NCBI GenBank assembly: GCA_951799425.1
Contig: OX637404.1
Location: 21,679,545 to 21,743,544 of the forward strand
Direction: 5' to 3'
Length of the DNA: 64,000 nt
Source: Ilex aquifolium
Lineage: Eukaryota > Streptophyta > Magnoliopsida > Aquifoliales > Aquifoliaceae
The position numbers and the translations under genes were made by a program. The notes below the pieces were generated by a model. It saw only the letters and a program-made list of their open reading frames with translations, did not search any database and had not been told where the DNA came from. The first letter of the stretch is position 1; the number at the start of each line of letters is the position of its first letter. Below are positions 761-14,984 of the stretch, piece by piece.

Positions 761-835
761 TTTAAAATATAAATACAGAAATGAGGTTCACTATTTCCTC
801 ATATCCTATTATAAAAGAGCCAATGTAACTTTTGG

Positions 836-1130
836 GAGCTTTTACCCAAAAGCAAGGGGTTTTTCAGACTTATACCCAAAAGAGGGTAGTTTTCAAATTA
901 TTCCCAAACTCAAGTACTTTTAAAAACATCATTCTAACTGACGTTTTTAGTCGAATTGTTGTGTTGCATGGGAACGCTAGTGGGCGTATAAAACGTCAGT
1001 TCAAATGACGTTTTACAGAAAACGTTGGTCCAAATGACATTTTTAAAAAATGTCATTTGTACTAACGTTTTACAGAAAAGGTTAAAACGTCATTTGTACT
1101 GACGTTTTTTGTATTCCACCTTTTCTTCCT
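836..1130 (+). repeat. MULE-1 left terminal inverted repeat
   Basis: Starts gagcttttacccaaaagc, immediately after the target duplication aacttttgg. From about 940 it carries a run of short inverted motifs of the form AAAACGTCA, then a 6-10 bp spacer, then TGACGTTTT. The clearest lie at about 992-1016 and 1083-1108, with diverged copies between. These repeated palindromes are candidates for transposase binding sites. Confidence 0.75.
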
Positions 1131-1400
1131 CATAAAAAAATAGGAAACAAAAATTATATTTGCATTATTTCAAAATGATATAAGATTTTGAATTTCAAAA
1201 ACGTTTCAATATAAACATTGAAACGTTTATATTTAATTAATTTTAATTTAACTTTCAAACATAAGATTTTGTGACTGATGTCGACAATAATGCCTATTAA
1301 AACAAAGTGGAGTGTATGTAAAAATCTAACTTATTCATAACCAAAAAATAGAGCATTTATTTCATGATATTTTCCAGTGCACTTGATGGGTAAAAGGGTA

Positions 1401-2108
1401 TCAATAACGTAGTTGATGTTCAAAACAACATAGAGGATTACTGAGTACACATAAACTTGATGGAATAAAAGTGTCTGACGCATCAACGTCCAAATCAAAG
1501 AAATCAAAAAGTTTAAGATCGGAAACAAGTAACGGATCCTCTAAAATTTTAATTTCGGCATATTTAGGATCAAAATGCTCAGTTTTTGCATGCTCGATTG
1601 CATCCAAACGATCAAGTCAATGCTGTATTTGATCATTTTCATGTTCAAGCATTGTTATGATCTCGTCATGATTGTTTGAATTTTGTGGATCATAAATATT
1701 ACCCGAATGTGCCTTCAGTACCGCAAGTCCATGCCAACGACAAAATACTTCAAGTTCACAACGTTTGTTATATAACTGTCGTCATCTTAGTGTGGGTTCG
1801 ATATGAGCACCCGGAGGTAGATAGTCAGTTCCAAGCCCAACAATTACATGTCCAACTTGACCGAATGGGTGATAAGGGTCGATGGGCTCATTGCGGAATT
1901 CACGTTTTCGCCCATATCATGTTACACCACTAGAATCTGTATATGATCCAATAGAAGGAACTCTATTCAGCGATATTGATCTGTCAGTTGAGCGTTCACG
2001 TTTGTTGGTGGAAGATGAACTATTTTGTTCATTGCTTAAAGAAGAACCTTCATTGGTTTGGTTGTATTGTGTATTTGATGTACGTTTATACATTTTGTTA
2101 CGAATCAT
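1401..2108 (-). pseudogene. Unrecognised 236-codon ORF relic inside MULE-1
   Basis: One minus-strand frame runs from an ATG at 2108 to a stop at 1401, interrupted only by three internal TGA codons. The N-terminal third is rich in Ser, Asn, Arg and Lys. The middle reads YGRKREFRNEPIDPYHPFG and has a hydrophobic Gly-rich turn (VGHVIVGLG). Near residue 155 there is a stretch with CRWHGLAVLK, then an acidic tail rich in Asp and Leu. All three TGA codons could come from Trp TGG by one G-to-A change, which suggests a protein-coding past. I do not recognise the family. A loose resemblance to GRF zinc fingers around CRWHGLAVL is too weak to claim. It may be a captured host gene or an accessory gene of the element. 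Confidence 0.45.
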
Positions 2109-2544
2109 TTACACAACTGTGAATGCTAGTATATATATGCTCGGTTTGGCAATTTAAAATAACAATGAAATGACATCACACTACATAGTTGGGAACTGAT
2201 TTGACAATGAGAGGACATGACAATGAAAAAGTTGTGATATGACAAAACACTGAATAGATTGATAAAAACTATGAGATTGCTTAACACTAATTAGGACATA
2301 CACATAAATGTAATACGCTCAATCAGTTGGACAATGATTACATTTGTTAATTTTCATCAGACATATATTCATCTAATAGGTATTGTTCATTAGACAATAC
2401 AGTAGATCAATCAATAGTTGTCAACTCCCTTCCAAATACAGTGGCCACCATGTCAGTTGCTAATTGGAGCATATAATATCGACACTTCTGCACGATCATT
2501 GATTGTTCAAAAACGTTGTTATTCCTAACCCCTTAAGATCATCC
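2109..2544. other. Gene-free stretch in MULE-1
   Basis: AT-rich DNA upstream of the 236-codon relic. I see no coding signal. The word atcatcc at 2538-2544 recurs at 4438-4444, just beyond the retroelement fragment that follows. Confidence 0.4.
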
Positions 2545-4437
2545 CTTTAATTTGTATATGGTGTATGTGTGAAGGGAGTGTCACTCTCCCTCGGGGTGAT
2601 GCAAGAGATTAGGCAACAACGGATTGGTGGAAAATGGAATGAACAAAATGTATGAAATGAAATGTGTGAACAAAAGTGCTCCCCAATCGCAAAGAGTCTT
2701 TTGTGTGTCGGTATTTTACTTGGAAAAGTATTCCAAGGTCGTCTCCTCAAGGAAGGAAAGTTCAAGTGTGGTGAAGGTGATTTTGCAAAAGGTGAAAAAA
2801 ATGTAAAATCTTTTAGTTTGTTTTGTAGAGTTGTGTTTGTAATGAAAATGCAAGAAAACAAGTGTTGGTTAATCAAAAGGGTCATTCCAATGGGAATACC
2901 AACTCAACTCAAAACCTTCCTCCAAGGGTTTATAGATGAACGATTGATTCTTGGGAAGCTCGGGACAAATGGAAATGAGGATCTAAGCATAAACCGTGAC
3001 AAGTCTACGAAAAATCAAAGCCTCACAACCAAATGGAGGCGAGAATCCAAGCATACCCCGTGACAAATGCCTACGGGATATCAAGGACTCACTACCACGT
3101 CCACACTCAACCCAGTCAAACCGAACCATCGTACACCGGGGAGGAAAGAAAATAAGTTGAAATGGAGGGCCCAAGAGGAATTCTCCCTTTAATTAGCCAA
3201 CTAAAAATCTAGCTAGTCATGCATAAAGGAAAGACAAGCATAATGTAAATGGACATAGTGAAATGGAGCATGAAACTTGAACTAATACAAGAAAACTTAA
3301 ACTAAGAAGACAAATATGAAATACCCAATTTAAAAGCTTGAAATGAAGAAAACTTAAATAACAATGGTGAAATCTAAAACATGTAACTAAACTTGGAATA
3401 GACTTGAAGTAGAGGAGATTACAATGCAAGAAATAAAGATTACAAGAAGATTAAAGCTTACAGGAGCGAAAATGGAAAGGAAAATGCAAGAACATAAGCT
3501 TTCTACTATTCATCATCTTCTTCACTAAAACTACTCCTAGCTTAGGTAGCCACACCAATACAATGTGTGAATGTTGAATATAATGGAGAGTTAGCCTTCA
3601 ATTTTCGTGCATGGTGGTCCCCCTTAGCTGTGTGCAGGCCTCCCATCAATGGGAGGCTGAATGATGGCTCTTGACAGGCTAAGGAAGAGCTAGCCTGCAA
3701 CTCACTGAGCAGCCCCCTTCTCTCCCATCCTCCTTTAATGCCAAGCCTTAAAAGTCTTCAAAATGTGTAAGAGAGGCATGGAGATGTGCAAGGAAATGTT
3801 GGGGGCAAGTGGGAGAATCATTGGTGGGACCCCCAAGCAAGTGGAGAAGAGTTTGCAGGTGTTCTGGGTTGTTCTGGGAGCGTACCGGTACTGTGTACCG
3901 GTACTCTAAACCTTCTGGAGTTCGAAGTACCGGTACGCAATACCGGAACGGTATAGTACCGGTACTGTGTACCGGTACTGTTTTCTACTCCGGACCACTT
4001 TTCGTAGAATCGGCATAACTTTTGATCCAACCATCCGATTGAGCTGAAATTTTGACACAATACAGAAGACATCCAGATCTACAACTTTCATGTTTTAAAA
4101 TTTTTCATATTCGAAGCGGATCATAGTCAAAATGGAGGAAAACCGAGGCTCTGTTTCCAAATGGTGTGGCTGCTGGTGCTTTTGTTCCCAAACACCAATA
4201 CCTCCTTGATTTCTTCACTTTTAAGCCTCCAAATCTTCATGTAATGTGTCCATGCCCTCACCACACATCCATCATAGTTGCAAGGTCATAAAATCAATCA
4301 TTTAAGCTATAAAAACTTGCAACAATGAAAATTCAACATTATTCATAAAATTGGCTAACTCTAAGTACTTAGATGCAAAAGTTGATTTAAAATGAATGTA
4401 ATGAGGCCTTCAAATATACAATATTTTGTGCTCATCA
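2545..4437 (-). mobile_element. LTR-retroelement fragment (non-autonomous or LTR-rich) inside MULE-1
   Basis: On the minus strand the stretch begins TGATGAGCACAAAATATTG at 4437, a typical plant LTR start. It continues through sequence of the kind seen in long plant LTRs and shows no reverse transcriptase. The matching 7-mer atcatcc lies outside both ends (2538-2544 and 4438-4444), but the left end lacks an obvious TG/CA terminus, so that boundary is uncertain. It is a broken, non-coding fossil. It also contains five copies of the palindrome gtaccggtac (listed separately). Confidence 0.45.
3882..3978. repeat. Cluster of five gtaccggtac palindromes
   Basis: Perfect 10-bp palindromes gtaccggtac lie at 3882-3891, 3895-3904, 3927-3936, 3956-3965 and 3969-3978, with a diverged copy (ataccggaacggtat) at 3940-3954. 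The outer pairs are each spaced by ctgt or tgt-type linkers, giving a mirrored two-plus-one-plus-two layout over 97 bp. No coding sense is visible. Confidence 0.85.
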
Positions 4438-4810
4438 ATCATCCTATTATTCTCCTTTCATACAGGTTTAACTACTGCTTCATAGTCCACTCTATTCTTT
4501 CATTGTATGGTAAATGAAAGTCTATGTGGCACCGGTATTCCAAGTTCTCTTACATCTGTGCATAATGAGTGTGATTCATTAGTACGAAAAATTCACTCTC
4601 GTCAGAGTCCGACATAATACTCTTTTGGATCAGAAAATCTCTTACTCTTGTAATCATTATTTCGCCCCTTGTAACAACCAAACTCGTTGATGTCTACAGG
4701 TCTTGATGTAGACATAATGTTCAATACATGCGATATCAACCACCCCTTATTGTGTTCCACTTCAATGGAAGATCGTTACATAGTAAGGTTTTGATCATTG
4801 TGTTCAATGT

Positions 4811-5350
4811 AGACTGTGTAGTCATTTGTTTTATCGGACAAGAACATTTGTCATCTATGCAGTAGTGTGTAGTCACCTTTTTATTTTTGAGTTGATGGTC
4901 ATACATTGAAATAATAGTTCAGTCAGTGTGACTACACACTGTTACTTGTTGGTGTGACTACACACTGAGACTTGTCATTCATTGAAGTTACTAGACCCTG
5001 ATTCATACAGCTAAAAGGACAAATGCATCAGTGTTTTTTTCATTGTGACTACACACTGATACCTGTTATTCATGGTGACTACACACGTCACCTCACATCC
5101 CTACTGTATATTTAATCAACGTCTATGAAACATTCGATAGTATTAGGGTTTATGTCATTGTGTTCAGCTATGATATAGTTTGATTGTGACTACACACCGG
5201 TGCATTGAAGTGCATTGTAGTGTGTTGTCAATTCATTGGTTTGTCCTTATTTCATTCAATGTTGAGGCACTTCATTCACGTGGATTGCTGAACAAGAAAT
5301 AGATACAACATGACAACTGCATCTACGTCATTCATTGTGACTACACACTG
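4811..5350. repeat. Dispersed tgtgactacacactg repeats
   Basis: At least eight copies of a roughly 15-bp word lie in 540 bp. Direct copies are at 4926-4941, 4952-4967, 5044-5058, 5074-5086, 5185-5199 and 5336-5350. Inverted copies are at 4812-4824 and 4864-4877. Spacing is irregular, so this is not a simple tandem array. The sequence between has no long ORF. The copies may be transposase or transcription-factor binding sites, or remnants of a minisatellite. Confidence 0.8.
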
Positions 5351-5572
5351 GTTCAATGTCATTTATTGAGGCTATAGACTGGCATACTCACATCCATAAT
5401 GCATATAAATTTCAACGCATGTGCAATATTCAATGTACACACTTCATCTCTAACCATAAATTGTAGTCCGCGAACGGTGTTTGAAACTCTAGGTTAGTAT
5501 TGGATAATAAAGGATGAGTTCTTCTATCCAATGAATCATTGCTTACGCTATTCATGAATGGCTAGAAACATA

Positions 5573-5823
5573 ATGATGGCCGAATCGCAATATTGTTTGA
5601 TGGAAAGAGAAAATCTAAGCTTAGATTTACATTCTTGCAACTTACGAAGGGCTTGACAAATTGCCATTGGTATGCATATTACCACTCCTCAGGAATTAGA
5701 GCGAGCATTGTTCTGTATTCGAGCTGAGAACAATCGAATGGAAGTCCATTGCAATCGATACATCCTCTGTCGCATCGCAAGAGACTGTGCTGTAGAAGGG
5801 AGGATACAAAAGCAATTTTAAGC
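5573..5823 (+). pseudogene. Possible small ORF relic, plus strand
   Basis: From ATG at 5573 the frame reads 27 codons to a TGA (5654-5656), then stays open for 55 more codons to a TAA. The second part has a mixed, protein-like composition with four Cys (HCNRYILCRIARDCA). I do not recognise it. It lies on the opposite strand from the other MULE-1 genes. It could equally be chance, since a competing minus-strand frame spans the same DNA. Confidence 0.2.
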
Positions 5824-6188
5824 TTCCAATTGAGTGGAGAAGCTGGATGTATTTCTGATGTGAAGATGTCTGACGAAGATGAAGACCCATGAAGAAGTGT
5901 TATGCAACTCTTGTGTTGTAACATTTAGACAATATTGTCGTATTTCTCTTTTTAGTATGTTATTTTTTTTATGTTTGGATGAAATATGTTGTATTACTCC
6001 AGTTAGTGTTGTTCATTTGTATTCGATAAATTTTGTTAAAGTTGGTTAAAAAACGTTGCATACATTATTTGATAACTAATTTGAAATGCAGTAATGAAAG
6101 AACTGTATATCAAAATATGAACCCAAAGTGTTTGTATATACCATAGTACTTAACACAATTTATATACAACATAGATAAAACAAATGGA
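5824..6188. other. Gene-free stretch downstream of the PMD relic
   Basis: AT-rich DNA beyond the C-terminal end of the minus-strand PMD gene, probably its 3' flank. I see nothing else in it. Confidence 0.4.
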
Positions 6189-8974
6189 CTACGTCCCATA
6201 AGGTGGTGGTCTCCTCTGTCGCTTGGGCCGTTGTCCATCTGGAGGACCTAAAATCTCTTGAGTCATTCTACCATCTACAGGATCATGTGCATGGTGGGCA
6301 CAATGACTGACTCTATGCCCACCTCTGCCCCGCCCTCTGTGAGAAAGTGATGGTTCTTGTGTCACTCCCTCCATAAGAACCTCAGCATCATCAGAAGAGT
6401 CCTCATATGAGATAGGAGAGGTAGGCCAATGGAGCAGCGGTGACACAGTTCGTGGAATACAAGGCACATCGAAAAGTGATATATCTATTTGGTCCAGTAC
6501 ATGTGGCACATCTCCTATAACCACCGGCTCCTATGAAGGTGTGCATGGTGACGGTGATGTATCCACGTGTGGTGAGGTCAATGATGGAACACATGATGTC
6601 ACTGTAGGTGTCTGTGAAGGACGGTCAATAGGTGGTGTAGTGGCATGATCAACAACGGGTGATGGACTGTAATAATCAGCAACGGGGACATATAGTGTAG
6701 GTGGACACGCTTTGAAGGTCTGGGGAACATATGAAGACGATGGATCTGCATGTGATGATGGTGAAGTAGTATCCATGACCGATGAGGATGTCTGTCCATG
6801 TGAGCGTGCAGCTGGCCATCGTGGAATACGTACACCACGCTGGCGTGCAGACACTGGTGGTGGAAATGATGGCTGTTGAATGTTTGACGGTGGCTGCAAA
6901 AGTCGATGGTGCTCAGAAATAGCTGACAAAGAGTTGTAGCTGACATCCCAGATGCGGCTGATGGCTGCCAAACAAGTTTTCAAATCAGGCTGACCCCTAA
7001 CAGTATCACATGTTGTGTGATATATCTGCGTCAGTGTCTGCTCCTGCATAACCATAAAATAATGACTTAAAACAATATTAAGTAATTTCTGTAACACGAT
7101 AATTTTAACTAAAAATTTATTAACACATACCAACAGCTCGATGATACTGTCGACGGGCTGGAATCTAGCATCAGGTCGGGGCATAGGTTGTCCGACAAGT
7201 AGATGAGTAATGCGCCGATACCACTCCATATATGGATCAGTGAGATCCATCATGTCGATGGTAGGCTCGCCGTGAACAATAGTATCTCGCCGCTGCTCCC
7301 ACATGCTGATATAGCGCTGATGTGCAATGGCCCAGTCATAACTAGATCCGCCACACCTATTCGTGGCATGCAGCTCCCTACTCGAATCACATGTTGCTGG
7401 TATCGGATGTCTCCACCCAAACTGCCGGAGAATACGATAGGGAAAATTTCACTCTACTACATCAAAACAAACGAGTGGTGCCTGAATAGTCCATAATTCT
7501 CAACCCCGCAAACAATAATCTGGTAGGCTGTCCAACAAATCCATAGTGAAAGGTTGCCAGATCATCTGCAATATAAGAATGTAAATAGTTGTTATAAGAC
7601 ATTCGATAAAAATTTCGGTAGAGTTTCTCCTATAAGTATGCTCCCAAAAATTTTCAAAAACACCTGTTGCATATTATATTTCATTCATATATTAACCACA
7701 ACCCAAAAATTGCCACAAACATCCACCAACCATACAAACCTCCAATTACAGAACAACAAACCACCAACAACACAAATAACTCAAAAATATACGTGAAATT
7801 GTTAGTATACCTGTTTATCCCGCATTTGTCAAGCTGATCTCTTTAATGTCTGAAAACATGGATAGAAGTGTGTTACTCGGAAAATGAAATATCCCAACTG
7901 GATAGCTAAACAAAAAAATTACATATGACATTAGTTGTCAATAAGTATGAGTAAAAAAAATGAATCATACAATCCAAATATTGTCTTACCTACACCCATG
8001 AGGGCCTGCAGGCAGCTCATTATGCGGCGCGGCATGTGGTGATGGTGCCGGTGTAGGTGCAGCACCATCTGGTAGGCCATCCTCCGCATGTAAATCTCCT
8101 CTATCCGCTACTACATGTGGTAATGGGATACGCGGGAGTAATCTTTGTGGACAAATGTGTGCTAAACGCTCCCATGCCCACAGTTGTATAGATACATGAA
8201 ATAGTTGTAATGTAATACGTTATTATGACATTACATTAAACTTAAAACAAAAATTATAAGTACATGAAAGAGAAGGTTGAGCTAGGTCAATGCAGCGCTG
8301 CCCCCAACTGAATTGATTGGCAATAATAAGATCGGCAAGCAATGAAAGATATATCAACTTCACCTTGCTCGATGACTTCTCTATGAACAGATAAGAACCT
8401 ATCAATAGCATGATGTATGCTCTGGCATAACATGCTATGAAATCATCGTCAGCTTCAACAGGGACACCTCCATCCAAATAAGCTTACAACGCACTAAATT
8501 TGAGGAAAGACCCGTCAATAGCTCCCGCAGCTAGTGTAAAACCAAGAAACTACTAGCATAATGCAGGCCAAGTTGTGCCATTAGGACAGCTGTCCCTACC
8601 ACACACTGGCATACCATTGATCGATAGTCTAACAAGCACTGCAATATCCTAAAGTGTGATAGTAGCCTCACCCACAATAAAATGGAACGTATGCGTCTCA
8701 ACCCCCCACCTCTCAACTAGGGTTGTGATGAGATGCCAGTCCAACCACTTCAACGCAACCTTGCGCGCCCGTAAAACCCCACAGTAAGAAAATGATGAAT
8801 AACTCGCTCATATGTGACGTGTAGTTGTAGTACGGTGCGATCATTGCACCTACAATGCAAAGGTGGGGGATCTACGCCCTGCCATATATACTTTGAGAGA
8901 TGTTCTACCTGCAATGATAGAATAGAGTGGTCATGTAGACCAGGATGTAGTAAATGTCTACCATCATTGTCCAT
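6189..8974 (-). pseudogene. Plant mobile domain (PMD) gene relic carried by MULE-1
   Basis: The family is the plant mobile domain, often labelled aminotransferase-like or 'protein phosphatase 7 long form homolog'. Minus-strand exons can be followed: 8974 to about 8262, about 8190-7990, 7849-7811, 7565-7131 and 7043-6189, mostly with GT/AG borders. Hallmarks are VERWGVETHTFHF, TITLxDIAVL, YARAYIMLLIGSYLF, NQFSWG, LWAWERL, VVEWNFPYRILRQFG and YMEWYRRI, then a Pro/Ser-rich tail ending RQRRPPPYGT. About seven in-frame stops and one frameshift (near 8757) break it. The stops are each explainable by a C-to-T or G-to-A change from the residue the family has there. The acceptor near 8190 also seems lost (CAG to CAA). 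Host PMD proteins (MAIN, MAIL1) act in genome stability and silencing, and transposon-borne copies are known. The role here is unknown. It lies about 250 bp downstream of the transposase gene on the same strand. Confidence 0.85.
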
Positions 8975-9226
8975 GGCCAGAACAAAAAATCTGCAAAAAC
9001 TAGATTAAATACAATCATCAATTATATAACAAAACATCCACAATCATATAGTGACAAAGTTAAGATTTCCAACATAAAAGATAGCATAATGACATCATTG
9101 CAACAAACATCTCATTACCAGTGTTACCTTCAAAATATTACAATATAAACACATCATAATGTCCACTACACACCTTTAGTACAATATAGGACAATGTAAC
9201 AATAAAAATAAAAAAAGTACATATAC
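8975..9226. other. Spacer between transposase and PMD relics
   Basis: About 250 bp of AT-rich DNA separating the end of the transposase relic from the start of the PMD relic, both on the minus strand. It would contain the PMD promoter and 5' leader, but no clear core promoter stands out. Confidence 0.4.
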
Positions 9227-11893
9227 CTAGCGAAGTGATATTGGAGCTCGAGTGTTTCTAGATAAACACTTCCGACGATTGTCACCCACTTTGCCGCACA
9301 ACTCACAATGTATCTGATTACGACCATCTGGCGGAAATTCCATCTCATTTCGTATGCGCAGGGCTTGTGGACGACCAACCAAGTCTCAACGTTGGTTGCG
9401 ATTAGAGACTAACTTAGTACGTGGAGGATCATCCCAATAATGTTCATGCTCCAGATGATACATTTGGGGCACCTAAATTTTCTCTTAATTTTCGATGTTG
9501 TACATGGGATCTATGTAAGATTGAAAATGCAATTGAAAATGAGAGCATACAGTCAATACATGAGAGCAATGAATTCTATAAATTACCCATTTTTCGCATG
9601 TACACGACCGGTCTTCAAGACAAACAACTTGCTTCTGACGACCTCCAGTCACCACTTCAATAAGACCACACTTCTTATAAAATGGCGTCATTTCGTGGAC
9701 ACGACTCATTTGTTGTGCATGTTGTACTCGGTCCACAACATCCTTAGGAAATTTCAACTCATTTTCTTTCCATTTTTCCACCTTATCTCGATGTTCGAAA
9801 TGATACTTAGTGACCTAATAAAATATCGATTTCACATAAGCAGTTATGGGCAAATACCTAGCACCTTGAAGAACATTATTAAAAACCTCAGAAATATTGG
9901 TTGTCATTATGCCATATTGTCGTCCACTATCATGGGCTAATATCCACTTCTCCACAGGTATTCTGTTCAAGTACTCAGTTGTTTCTTCTTTAACGTTGCT
10001 TATCTAGGTCATCAGTGCATCGAACTTGCAAATCTGTCTTGCTTTGTCAGCCCTCCACATAAAATCGTACAAATGGGCATCCTTAAACTGTGTATTAAAA
10101 TTACTACACACATGCCTAAGACAAAAGCGATGATAAGCATGTGGTGGATGCCAAGCAGAATTTTCCATGTTCACAGCAGAAATGATTCCCGCGTGCCTGT
10201 CAGAAATTAAACATATCCTTTGCATATGTCTAAGAACTATCCGCCGAAGGTAATATAGGAAAAAAGACCAACTTGATTGAATTTCCTCTTCCATGATAGC
10301 AAATGCAATGAGAAACAGTTGCTTATTAGAATCAAAACCCGTTGCCACTAACAACTTTCCCTTGTACTTGGCACGCAAAAATGTCCCATCAATACTGACA
10401 ACAGGTCAACAATATTTAAACCCTTTAATGCTAGCCTTCAGTGCCCAGAATATTTGGAAAAACATTATATTCTTTAGATTCATAGTTATATTGTCACTTC
10501 ACAATCGAGCCAGGGTTATATTTCTTGATGGCACCCAAAAATTTAGGCAACATGTCATACGACGACGTCCCAATCACCGAAAATCATAGCAATTACCTTG
10601 TTCCTCTCAATCCAAACTTTCTTATAGGAAATATCATACTTAAAATTTTCCTTTATATTTTTCTGAATTGTTGACATTTTTGTTTGCGGGGGATCACCAA
10701 CAAGTCCCAATATATTATGACATATGAAATCAGAGTCTAACTGCCTGTAATCACGACTCATTCAAGGGTAGAAGTAGATATGAGGTCCATCATATTTCGT
10801 GATCTGAAATATTTTCAGCTTTTTCCTAAAACAAGCACGTAGTTTTTACTTGCGATTAGGCTGCATGTACATGTTGCGCTGTATAGCCCACACCGTTGTG
10901 TTCATCTCCACCACAACATAATCCTGATTTAGCTTGATGGAATACTATTTAACTGCCCTAATCAATGAAACTTTATCATTAAAAATCATGTCCTTCGCCA
11001 ACTCCATCTTTATTGGATCCCACAAATTCAATTCAACAGACGGTACTAAGCTATCTGCTTCAGAATGCTGACCAAATTCAATGTTTGTGAAAAAAGAGGA
11101 GTAAGACTTATGCATCTGAACCTCCCCACCAGTCTCAATTTGTTCACCATTCCCATCATCGTCATCCGGGTCATCAAGCATTATCTGACACACTTGTACG
11201 ATCATTCGCACACATTTCTTCATATTCCTGGATTGGGCTTTGTTGCATTACTGGTTGATGGACATCAACTTGTTCACCCAACTCAATCCCCTCCTTACAT
11301 ATTTGACAATTCTAACTCATTGGGTTTGAGTACCCACCATATGTAGCAGATCCAGAATTTTGGTGGGTATAGGTGTACTGCCCAGACATATCCACTAACT
11401 GCATCCCCACTGGAGTGGAACATTCACCCATCAACCCAGAAGTTGGAAATGTTGAGTTGTCTATCTCTCGCTTGGGCAACTCACTATAAGATATGGTAGT
11501 GGTGGTTAGGCACCCCCTGGTCTGACTACTGCCTACGATAACATTGATGTCCTCCGTCTCCACATACAAAGCAACACTAGCCATGTTGGGGTTGTCGACT
11601 ACAACATTAACCAAAGAAGTAACAAGTTCATCGTTCCCAATTTTCAGTTCGACATATGTATTCATGTTTGATCCTGCTCCTAGTGTAAATGGATATCTAT
11701 ATGTCTACCTCAACTTGTAATGCGACCTTCCCAACCCCACTATAGTATAAATTTTACTCAACAACTCCGGTAGTTTTGTGCCACTATTTATAACAATTCC
11801 ACCTTTGCGAGGAGAATTGTAAGATAAACCCTCCAATCCATATTCCATTTGTCCATCCCAATATAGCAAAACAGTAACTTATTTTCCTGCCAT
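9227..11893 (-). pseudogene. MuDR-type transposase relic of MULE-1
   Basis: Read on the minus strand from MAGK at 11893. The N-terminus has VTVLLYWDG, a start seen in plant Mutator transposases. The MuDR DNA-binding domain lies near 10960-10800 (YSIKLNQDYVVVE, KIFQITKYDGPH). The DDE catalytic region lies at 10430-10010 (SIDGTF, then FLIAFAIMEEE, then ISDRHAGI and HRFCLRH). A SWIM zinc finger, CTCEKWVIYRIHCSHVL, lies near 9560. A C-terminal zinc knuckle, CELCGKVGDNRRKC, lies near 9280 after GRPQALRIRNE. The gene appears intronless and carries roughly ten in-frame stops plus frameshifts, so it cannot make a transposase. Product role: cut-and-paste transposition of elements with matching ends. 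Confidence 0.85.
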
Positions 11894-12259
11894 TTTAATT
11901 AGTTTTCGTCATGGAATAAGTTCTGAATTCACAAGAACCTGAGAATTAATAAAAAAAAGGTTAATACTTGAGGAAGAATAGATCCATAGTTAAGTTTAAC
12001 GCATGCGACATACAAGAATTGATAAAATATGAAACCTCCTTAGAGTTGGAAGTGTCGAGCAAACAAACTAAGAAACCTGGAGATCAAACCAATACTAGGG
12101 ACTTTGATAAAAACAAGGACAATGGTGGTGCTTGCTTACTGAGAGACATAACTACAATGCTATTACTGAGGGTGAGAGACTGAGATGGTGTTGCAAAATG
12201 GTGTTGCTTGGATATTTATGAAAATTTTATGGAACTTTAACATTATACAAAATCTTAAA
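11894..12259. other. Gene-free stretch upstream of the MULE-1 transposase
   Basis: The probable promoter and 5' flank of the minus-strand transposase. A 71-codon plus-strand frame at 11968-12183 has no recognisable motif and is not called. Confidence 0.4.
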
Positions 12260-12499
12260 CAATTTATAGAAACGTTGATTCAATTGACGTTTTACATTGT
12301 GAGCAGAGGTTTAGGTCGTCTTAAAACTGTTATTTCAACTAAAGTTTTATATATAAAGACATCATTTCAACTGAAGTTTTTAAAATTGCATGAGTTTGGG
12401 AAATACTTTCAACACAACTTAGTTTTGGGTATAAGTTCCCAAAAATCACCTAGATTTGGCTATAAGTTCCCAAAACTACCTAGTTTTGGGTAAAAGCTC
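12260..12499 (-). repeat. Inner copy of the MULE-1 right end
   Basis: Ends ttttgggtaaaagctc at 12499, the inverted form of the left end at 836. Inward it has two to three tandem units related to ttcccaaaactacctagttttgggtataag, then aaacgttgattcaattgacgttttac near 12270. It is more diverged from the left end than the outer right end at 14047. The next 9 bp (gactcatta) do not match the left flank, so this end is not paired by a target duplication with 836. Confidence 0.65.
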
Positions 12500-13070
12500 G
12501 ACTCATTATACTTAAGTAAATAGAGAGAATGAAAGAGCAAAATGAACACATCAACCTTAACTCCATTGAATAAATGATTTATCCCACTCGATATGTATAT
12601 ACCTTTTTTTTCACCCAAAACATTATAAATGTGCTTCCATATATGCTCTAAAGTACTCAATTTCTCTATATGCATGAGCCAAGATTATTCTAACGCAGAT
12701 GGTTGAAATCAAAAACCAGTGAACTATAACCAACAAAACATGCTAGAAGCAATATGGTTTACTAATTACCATATTTTACTACATTTATAATTACATAAAA
12801 GTCATTTACATATACATCTAGAGAGTAATATCCTACAAGCTTCTTACCACAATATTGAAAAACACAGATTTGTTTCTAGTGTATTAGTGTAGAACACACA
12901 GATACCCTATCCTGTGAAGACTTGCATGTGAATGAGCTTCAAACCAGTATTCATGTTTATTTCCAAAAGGAAGGAAAAAGATAAGTTATTAGGAGGGACT
13001 TGTTCTCTAAAAGTGAGGCAACTAAATTATTTACATCCGAGGTGTTTTGTACAATAGTGAGTTCAATTTC
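12500..13070. other. 571-bp spacer between the two inner MULE ends
   Basis: Ordinary AT-rich DNA with no ORF or repeat that I can support. It lies outside both inner terminal repeats, yet inside the outer pair that carries the target duplication. If the composite reading is right, this is carried host DNA. Confidence 0.5.
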
Positions 13071-14046
13071 GAGCTTTTACCCAAAACCAAGGGTTTTTTC
13101 AAACATAGATACATCATAGATAAGGGAGAGGAGAGAGAAAAAACAGAGAGAGGGAGAGTTACATGTTGTGGAGGTGGCTATGGTGGAGGCGTTGTCAGAG
13201 CAGTGGTGGTTGCAGTGTGACGCTGGTCCGAATGATGTTGTGTGCATGGGTTTCTGATGGTGGGGTGGGTTTCAAAATTGGTTGTATCCGATGGGGTTGG
13301 TGGTGATTTCAAAAGGTGCTGGTGGTGGTGATGATTTGCAAAGGTGGGGGGTGGGGGTGATGATTTGTGAAGGTGTGGATTTTCAAAGGTGGGGATGGTG
13401 ATGATTACTGTTGGAGGGGGTAGCGGTGGTGGAGGCCTTGTCAGACTAACGGTGGAGGAGTGGTGGTTGCTGTGTGGCTGACAAGAGGTTTTTGTGGTGG
13501 ATGTGGTGATTTCCGATGGTGGGGGTGGAGGGGGTAGTGGGGATTTCGGGTTAGGGCTCTAATCTCAGAAAAGGGGGAAAATCAGAGAGAAGGAAAGAAG
13601 AGAAAGAAGAAAGGGGGAATGGGCGTTTTTGTGTGTGTGGTGGTGATTTCCGAAGGTGGGGGTGGAGTGGGTGGTGGTAGGTGGTGGGGATTTCGGGTTA
13701 GGGCTCCTAAAACAGAAAAGGGGGAAAATCAGAGAGAAGGAAAGAAGAGAAAGAAGAAAGGGGGAAATGGGTGTTTGAACTTACCGTAAAAAACGCTAGT
13801 TCGAATGACGTTTTTAAGGAGACGTCGGTTGGATTAGCGTTTTACATTGCCAAATAGTTTTTTATCTTTATTTAAAAACGTCATTTACAATAACGTCTTT
13901 TACTCAAAAACGTCAATCTAAGTGACGTTTTTAGATTAAAAACGTAGAATGACGTTTTTAAAAGTACCTAGATTTTGGAATTAGTTTGAAACCTACCCTC
14001 TTTTGGGTATGAGTTTGAAAAATCCTTTGCTTTTGGGTAAAAGCTC
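13071..14046. mobile_element. Non-autonomous MULE unit at the right end of MULE-1
   Basis: Begins gagcttttacccaaaacc and ends ggttttgggtaaaagctc-like sequence, so it has both types of end within 976 bp. The right 260 bp contain the same ACGTCA/TGACGT palindromes as the left end at 836. The middle (about 13131-13780) is rich in GGTGG and GA tracts and is internally duplicated. No transposase is present. It may have been a separate small element before becoming the right end of the composite. Confidence 0.6.
13507..13780. repeat. Tandem duplication in possible captured gene DNA
   Basis: Two copies of about 135-150 bp lie side by side. The first runs about 13507-13640 and the second about 13642-13780. 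Shared landmarks are gatttccga.ggtgggggtgga, gatttcgggttagggctc and aaaatcagagagaagg. On the minus strand the unit reads as a CT-rich leader followed by CCCTAACCCGAAATCCCCACC, which looks like a plant 5' UTR and start of a Pro-rich protein. Capture of host gene DNA, as in Pack-MULEs, is one explanation. Confidence 0.6.
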
Positions 14047-14047
14047 C
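13790..14047 (-). repeat. MULE-1 right terminal inverted repeat
   Basis: On the minus strand it begins ggagcttttacccaaaagc and aligns with 836-936. It contains inverted ACGTCA/TGACGT pairs near 13800-13830, 13870-13905 and 13908-13935. The target duplication aacttttgg follows at 14048-14056. Confidence 0.75.
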
Positions 14048-14056
14048 AACTTTTGG

Positions 14057-14218: not shown

Positions 14219-14984
14219 TCATTGATTGGAACTGGCTACATCATGTTGAAGGAGAGGTGTCAAGAACAAAGGACAATCCTCCCTCCAAATATGGGGTTCC
14301 ATACAATTTTCTGCATACTCTGCTAGGCAGTGCACTACAGCATTGCCTTCTCTACGGGTCCATGGAAAGGAAAGCTCAGCAAAACTACTTGCAAAGGATT
14401 TGATTTGATCAACAAACTTGCCTAGTTCAGATAACTCCGTCATATCACTTTGAAGTGCATCAATGACCAATTTATAATCGCCCTCAATAACAACTTTATC
14501 ATACCCAAACTCTGCCGCTATCTTAATACCACAACTTGCCGCAAATGCCTTTACATGATCAGGTTGAAGCAATCCTTGTATTTTTTGGCAATATCCCATT
14601 ATAAACGAACCATTCCAATCCCTAATCACCATCCCAACGCCTGAGGAGCCAGATTCAATAAAAAGTACACTATCAAAATTAATTTTCAGCACCCCAACTG
14701 GAGGGGCAGATCACACTCTTCTATCCTCTGTATATTCATGTCGCTGTGTAACGGGTTGGGGATCAAGGGTGCTACAATATTGTGTCAAATGGGTATTAGC
14801 AAAATCAACAATCTGGTATGGGGTGTAAGAATCATCACCAAGTCTTACCTTGTTCCCTATTAAACCACATTGTCCAAATGAGAGTGAAGATAAGACATAG
14901 GTGATGAGGGAGCAACAAATTTGAGGAGTTCATCACCCATTCTAGAAAAAAGGCTGAATTTCCTTGAGGAGGTTGTATACCTGC
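14219..14984 (-). pseudogene. LINE A piece 1: RNase H domain
   Basis: A 157-residue open stretch (14692-14219) is a plant LINE-type RNase H: LKINFDSVLF with the first catalytic Asp, then VGMVIRDWNGSF, then VIEGDYKLVIDAL, then the tail WTRREGNAVVHCLAEYA. The second acidic residue is not preserved: the KAE of the family reads KAFAASCG here. Upstream, to 14984, the frame degenerates. The DNA is cut by a solo LTR at 14985. Confidence 0.8.

Follow-up and report, generated by a model that had tools for sequence, protein, structure and literature searches.

When a Mutator-like element (MULE) appears to hold four termini rather than two, which of them were used to insert it, and how did the others come to lie inside? 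These questions are raised by a 64,000-nucleotide stretch of the Ilex aquifolium genome (C14:21679545-21743544), hereafter the window, in which the end word GAGCTTTTACCC occurs in four exact copies, at 836-847(+), 12488-12499(-), 13071-13082(+) and 14035-14046(-), with no fifth exact copy in the window. An original prediction, made from the sequence of this stretch, had located the same four words in these orientations (placing the last at 14047, one base beyond its terminus at 14046(-)) and proposed that two neighbouring elements and the spacer between them had moved as one unit, in the manner of a bacterial composite transposon. In such transposons the outer ends move the load between them. 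To follow up this proposal we searched one genome, comprising about 800 Mb in 103 contigs, and all copy counts given here are lower bounds.

The outermost ends delimit a single insertion

As predicted, only the outermost pair of ends is flanked by the duplicated word: in a search of both strands of the window, AACTTTTGG was found exactly at 827-835 and 14048-14056 alone. Between the right terminus and the right duplication lies an additional C (14047), and the unit is thus 836-14046/14047. The flanks of the two outer ends match at 9/9 positions with a 1-bp offset, compared with 4/9 for outer left and inner right, 3/9 for inner left and outer right, and 3/9 for the two inner ends; among random pairs from the window, the background is 2e-5 for a 9/9 match at two offsets and 4.9e-4 for 8/9 or better. 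The outer ends are also the most alike, again in agreement with the prediction, at 84% over 122 bp in local alignment and 82% over 115 bp end to end. The corresponding values for outer left and inner right are 75% (74.6%) over 122 bp, in a local alignment that falls on a sub-repeat lying 30 bp internal to the terminus, and 64% over 115 bp. TIR likeness of the inner left end is limited to about 36 bp.

The prediction had suggested looking for an empty site in related accessions, and one was found within the same genome, at C14:21610567 (right-flank search, 12 of 12 candidates scored), where the left and right flanks are continuous through a single AACTTTTGG with nothing between. This site was either never filled or cleanly vacated, and either way the unit is 836-14047. 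The 9/9 duplication and the empty site show that the outermost ends inserted the whole as one unit, and the locus is probably a single MULE, a member of a large family. Its assignment as a MULE follows from long terminal inverted repeats (122 bp, 84%), a 9-bp target duplication at the element ends (9/9, with the empty site) and a MULE transposase domain (PF10551, 7.5e-21, at 10007-10405(-); SWIM, 6e-5). Insertion of one MULE into another was rejected, as the inner ends are ordered right then left and carry no duplication of their own.

Two segmental duplicates, C14:21482039 and C14:21596198 (L025 and L024), share the left flank, the duplication (with one mismatch in C14:21482039) and the left end, and seem to hold the same insertion. 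In each, the left 554 bp are retained and the sequence gives way, at the same base (window 1389), to other DNA that is 96% alike between the two; the right-flank search, with 12 of 12 candidates scored, returned no right flank for either. At C14:21544297, a further duplicate of the site, other DNA interrupts near the insertion point. Immediately right of the element, at 14222-14710(-), lies a reverse-transcriptase-like (RVT_3) open frame (2.8e-25) whose DNA is also present in the empty-site duplicate. Inside both ends, self-matches reveal subterminal inverted arrays of AACGTCA/TGACGTT words, at 990-1108 and 13871-13962.

Table 1. Features of the MULE and its target site (positions in the window)
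Feature	Position	Strand	Basis or remark
Left target-site duplication, AACTTTTGG	827-835	+	Present once in the empty site
Outer left TIR, functional left end	836-955	+	Outer right end 84% alike over 122 bp; groups with outer ends in trees
Open frames	6192-8483	-	Plant mobile domain (PF10536) in two, 6534-7448 and 8226-8483
MULE transposase region	9169-11704	-	PF10551 at 10007-10405, SWIM at 9488-9814; several separate frames in raw translation
Block common to plain relatives and C2-type right ends	12265-12328		12328 is the last shared base in five of nine plain relatives read
Inner right TIR of a different end subtype, unused here	12329-12499	-	Clusters with termini from other MULEs and separately from 23 outer and relative ends
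Spacer part a	12500-12673		Abuts the inner right end on its outer side; resembles C11:31666765
Spacer part b	12673-13065		90% match at C5:8055369, with carotenoid dioxygenase coding blocks on either side
Inner left end, its TIR sequence limited to about 36 bp	13071-13106	+	End alignments
G-rich right arm, as in two plain relatives	13148-13930		Sequence comparison
Outer right TIR, functional right end	13931-14046	-	End alignment; tree
Right target-site duplication, AACTTTTGG	14048-14056	+	After the extra C at 14047

The inner ends and spacer recur at other sites

The predicted spacer length of 571 bp proved exact, and a search with this spacer, in which 12 of 12 candidates were scored, yielded 14 matches at 12 loci. 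Nine of these are MULE copies with recognisable ends: the window, C11:4994737, three on C10, C4:19359689, C6:1791603, C5:14931562 (the C5:149 copy) and C1:38767808. At the remaining three (C5:8055369, C11:31666765 and C6:36340390), allowing for up to two mismatches, no end word lies closer than about 1.5 kb. The nine copies represent seven sites, whose flanks, seen on at least one side, differ from one another; the three C10 copies were counted as one duplicated site, as the three C10 outer ends share a flank. These outer ends lie about 20 kb from the C10 spacers to which they would belong, a related MULE having probably nested in the C10 right arm and parted the two. At C10:17770349-17773958 (L011), the inner left end is followed about 350 bp to its right by another left end of the family, together with the interior belonging to it.

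The inner right end is present in eight of the nine copies, the ninth (C10:18182619) having an inner left end and no inner right end in the fetched piece. The prediction's call for further copies with the four-end layout is answered by the C11 copy, whose outer ends at 4993720 and 5027503, 33.8 kb apart, enclose the same inner right end, spacer and inner left end. Its target duplication matches at 8/9 positions, and a separate empty site for it lies at C11:5099521, with 81% identity across the junction. The C1 copy carries the inner right end and part a, with an 8/9 duplication at a 1-bp offset; its empty site was searched for and not found. Target duplications were thus compared at three of the seven sites (window 9/9, C11 8/9, C1 8/9). 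No left ends were seen in the 6-kb pieces fetched for the C4, C6 and C10 copies, and no right end in the 2 kb added to the C5:149 copy.

Nine copies at seven sites, together with the C11 copy's own duplication and empty site, establish that the inner right end and spacer, common to all seven sites, form a layout that is inherited and mobile. The spacer is accordingly not local DNA of the window site. Recurrence also bears on whether the inner 12-mers are accidental or the product of a wrong join in the assembly. A 12-mer is short, and this one has 192 exact matches genome-wide against 89 for its reversed control; however, the inner right similarity spans 120 bp and recurs in eight copies, each followed by part a, and the inner left end is complete in five. 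Chance 12-mers were therefore rejected, and we regard accident or mis-assembly together as very improbable.

The inner right end is of another end subtype

The eight inner right ends match that of the window at 83% or more over at least 139 of 171 bp, and in 8/8 cases part a follows (40 of 214 candidates scored). In a tree of 31 ends they formed one group (95/99, with bootstrap values that had not settled), separate from the 23 outer and relative ends. Adding nine ends of this subtype from other loci gave a set of 17 that again stood apart from the same 23, at 100/99, and only six of the eight inner right ends remained together (91/94), the two identical C10 ends falling on a long branch weakly joined to another end (77/74). 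The inner right ends as one clean group thus held in the 31-end tree and not in the enlarged one. Assignment of the inner right end to a foreign end subtype is well supported by these trees, and the six grouped ends with their shared spacer suggest that it was acquired once. Towards its terminus (12438-12499), the inner right end repeats the end word in about three versions at a spacing of 30 bp, with ends at 12438, 12469 and 12499.

Elsewhere in the genome this subtype occurs on C2 and C5, where three different flanks follow and the ends are therefore taken to be termini. The two C2 ends compared carry the 12265-12328 block (65 and 68 of 76 bases), and the element at C2:21.38 Mb has a separate match to 12200-12272 about 780 bp upstream of its end-type match.

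Two plain relatives share the right arm

At 14 loci, similarity covered the stretch leading up to 12328 and ended there; nine of the 14 were read, so that this ending was a selection criterion. These nine plain relatives match the window up to 12312-12333, and for eight the right end lies within the fetched sequence. Two of the eight diverge at 12312, rejoin the window sequence at 13148 (C11_242) or 13313 (C9_936) and continue to the outer right end, indicating that most of the supposed second element resembles the right arm of these relatives. In the other six, the match does not return before 13720. Two relatives, C1_3266 and C8_301, contain internal right-end-like pieces that lack the last 40 bases, and end-like pieces inside arms are therefore not unique to the window lineage.

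In the C6 copy, part a and 70 bp of part b are followed by about 500 bp that are mostly without a match and then by matches to C11_242, at 352-517 and 1859-1964 of that relative, which itself leaves the window at its position 281. Plain right-arm sequence in the C6 copy therefore resumes about 70 bp past the relatives' divergence point, and no inner left end was seen in it. Under a two-neighbour origin this would be a coincidence, in that the second element would have to start near the point where the first one stopped.

Could 12499 instead be the ancestral right end, with right arms of a new end type added beyond it and the old end lost from the plain relatives? The 12265-12328 block precedes both the divergence point of the relatives and the C2-type ends, as this would lead one to expect, and C1_3266 and C8_301 also have their internal right-end-like pieces. 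However, the outer left ends of the window element and its kin are of the other end subtype, and the C2:21.38-Mb element keeps its 12200-12272 match well upstream of its end-type match, making a fossil former end improbable.

The spacer matches two chromosomes

The spacer joins pieces that match two different chromosomes. Part a is 85% alike over 132 bp to C11:31666765, and in the longer part a of the C1 copy a weaker similarity of about 36 bp reaches the first base past the inner right terminus (0/1000 shuffles were as good). Part b stops 5 bp short of the inner left terminus. Its matching locus, C5:8055369, has a colinear paralogue at C6:36340390; PF03055 (RPE65-family) matches occur in four open stretches around C5:8055369, two above the curated cut-off, and one of the four matches carotenoid 9,10-dioxygenase chains (2e-25). 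Because it falls between coding blocks, part b is probably mostly intron.

In the C1 and C5:149 copies part a is longer, and both part b and the inner left end are missing. A complete inner left end is present in five copies only, all of the window element's lineage. No stand-alone element with the inner left end was found among 10 of 10 candidates scored, and no stand-alone partner ending in the inner right end among the 40 of 214 inner right candidates scored.

Origin of the inner ends

The proposal of composite-like movement divides at this point. Use of the outer ends stands, as does the reading of the 13.2 kb as one insertion, with C11 behaving likewise. The second part, two neighbouring elements with a local spacer, is less well supported, given the right arm as found in two relatives, an inner left end found complete in one lineage only, a spacer matching two chromosomes and the resumption in the C6 copy. 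As the simplest reading, it is weakened by the lack of a lone inner left element, by the right arm of the plain relatives and by the C6 copy.

We favour, with reasonable though incomplete confidence, an account in which foreign filler, comprising the inner right end, the spacer of 571 bp and the inner left end of 36 bp, was copied by repair into the right arm of one MULE, which then spread. An ancestor MULE would have been broken near 12328, and repair may have entered the right end of a MULE of the other subtype through the common 12265-12328 block. Copying would have continued through the foreign right end and out into its host flank, giving part a, before a template switch to a piece of the carotenoid dioxygenase gene (part b), then to a left-end fragment, and a return into the right arm. 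The product is found at no fewer than seven sites, to which it would have spread after these events with its inner ends as passengers.

Several lines of evidence lead us to this account: the window has its 9/9 duplication and empty site; C11_242 and C9_936 leave at 12312 and resume in the same right arm; in the C6 copy, pieces of plain right arm persist beyond the inserted block; other MULEs terminate in the inner right subtype, and both C2 ends compared have the 12265-12328 block joined to it; the spacer parts match two chromosomes; the C11 copy shares inner right end, spacer and inner left end, with an 8/9 duplication and an empty site; and the C1 copy shares inner right end and part a, with an 8/9 duplication. 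More than one step would be needed, since the C1 and C5:149 copies have the longer part a with neither part b nor inner left end. Against filler, part a abuts the intact inner right end on its outer side and only 5 bp separate part b from the inner left end, joints also expected from two adjacent insertions. Further points against it are the C10 pair of inner right ends, which fall outside the group of six on their weakly placed long branch, the roughly 500 bp of mostly unmatched DNA before the C6 right-arm pieces, and target duplications compared at three of seven sites.

Those joints are accounted for equally well by end bypass, or macrotransposition. Here a MULE ending at 12499 would have lain beside a family member, and a transposase that skipped the inner pair and used the outermost ends would have taken along the host DNA between, with later deletions shortening the parts. 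The inner ends are oriented as those of two neighbours would be, part a can be traced to the base after the inner right terminus, the inner right subtype is a terminus elsewhere with three different flanks, and hybrid elements arising from neighbours have been described for Pack-CACTA (PMC13317346). End bypass accounts less well for a spacer drawn from two chromosomes, for partners missing as stand-alone elements (40 of 214 candidates scored for the inner right end) and for the C6 copy, whose right-arm sequence returns about 70 bp after the point of divergence; two plain relatives have a similar right arm, and likeness of the inner left end covers only about 36 bp. We therefore consider end bypass unlikely, if still a serious competitor. 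The same doubt attaches to its corollary of a natural MULE macrotransposon lineage, in which an intact internal right terminus was repeatedly ignored, a farther one used and host flank carried to at least seven sites. Were it true, such a lineage would offer a direct route for the gain of host sequence by MULEs.

How MULEs acquire host DNA is unsettled (PMC8277862, PMC13317346), the former paper discussing gap-filling, template switching and end bypass. Around an internal terminus joined to copied host DNA, one genome here offers plain relatives, intermediate copies and likely source loci, which together make template copying through an element end testable against end bypass.

Relation to known systems

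The closest known system is the set of MULEs with extra TIRs reported by Ferguson and Jiang 2012 (PMC3310237), who describe 61 tomato MULEs with extra TIRs, outer target duplications and no inner ones. The prediction's statement that such movement is seldom documented is in this respect rather strong. By the standards of that study, similarity of at least 100 bp for an extra internal TIR is reached by the inner right end, weakly, and the inner left end (36 bp) would fall short; an outer duplication without an inner one is present (9/9 versus 3-4/9). The window element is alike in having a TIR inside it, an outer and no inner duplication, and several copies. In PMC3310237, one solo TIR is reported in 13 of the 61 elements, and another copy for only one of 12 distinct ones; this near-absence of copies is called 'death on birth', and the sole solo-TIR element with transposase similarity had stops and frameshifts. 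In contrast, the extra end here occurs at seven sites in a transposase-bearing lineage, with frames interrupted in raw translation, and adjoins copied host DNA on its outer face. A lineage at seven sites runs counter to 'death on birth' for elements with one extra TIR.

Like Pack-MULEs and Pack-TYPE elements (PMC8903248, PMC8277862), the window element holds a host gene piece of about 390 bp (12673-13065) between TIRs that has spread by transposition. It differs in also having a transposase region, whose domain is present with frames interrupted in raw translation and which places the element outside the strict Pack-MULE class, and in that the captured piece comes from between a gene's coding blocks and lies near an internal MULE terminus. 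In Pack-CACTA hybrid capture (PMC13317346), the outer ends of two neighbours likewise enclose host DNA, but the inner ends there were lost by terminal deletions, whereas here the inner right end is intact and the spacer matches two chromosomes.

As in bacterial composite transposons, the outer ends were used to move the whole, as tested here. No pair of independently mobile flanking elements was found (10 of 10 inner left and 40 of 214 inner right candidates scored). A literature search judged by title or abstract opening returned no report of composite or macro-transposition by MULEs, and we make no claim of absence. In PMC3169594 'composite' denotes repeat-rich TIRs and is not relevant, and PMC9168764 was likewise set aside as not relevant.

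Other features of the family

The PF10536 frames at 6534-8483(-) sit in the same MULE as the transposase; their two matches score 9.5e-9 (35.3 bits, cut-off 34.9) and 9.2e-5 (under the cut-off). At C3:4153757-4208024, pairs of end words 13.1 kb apart occur in three repeats with a 20.57-kb period, a tandem array of segments holding a family member.
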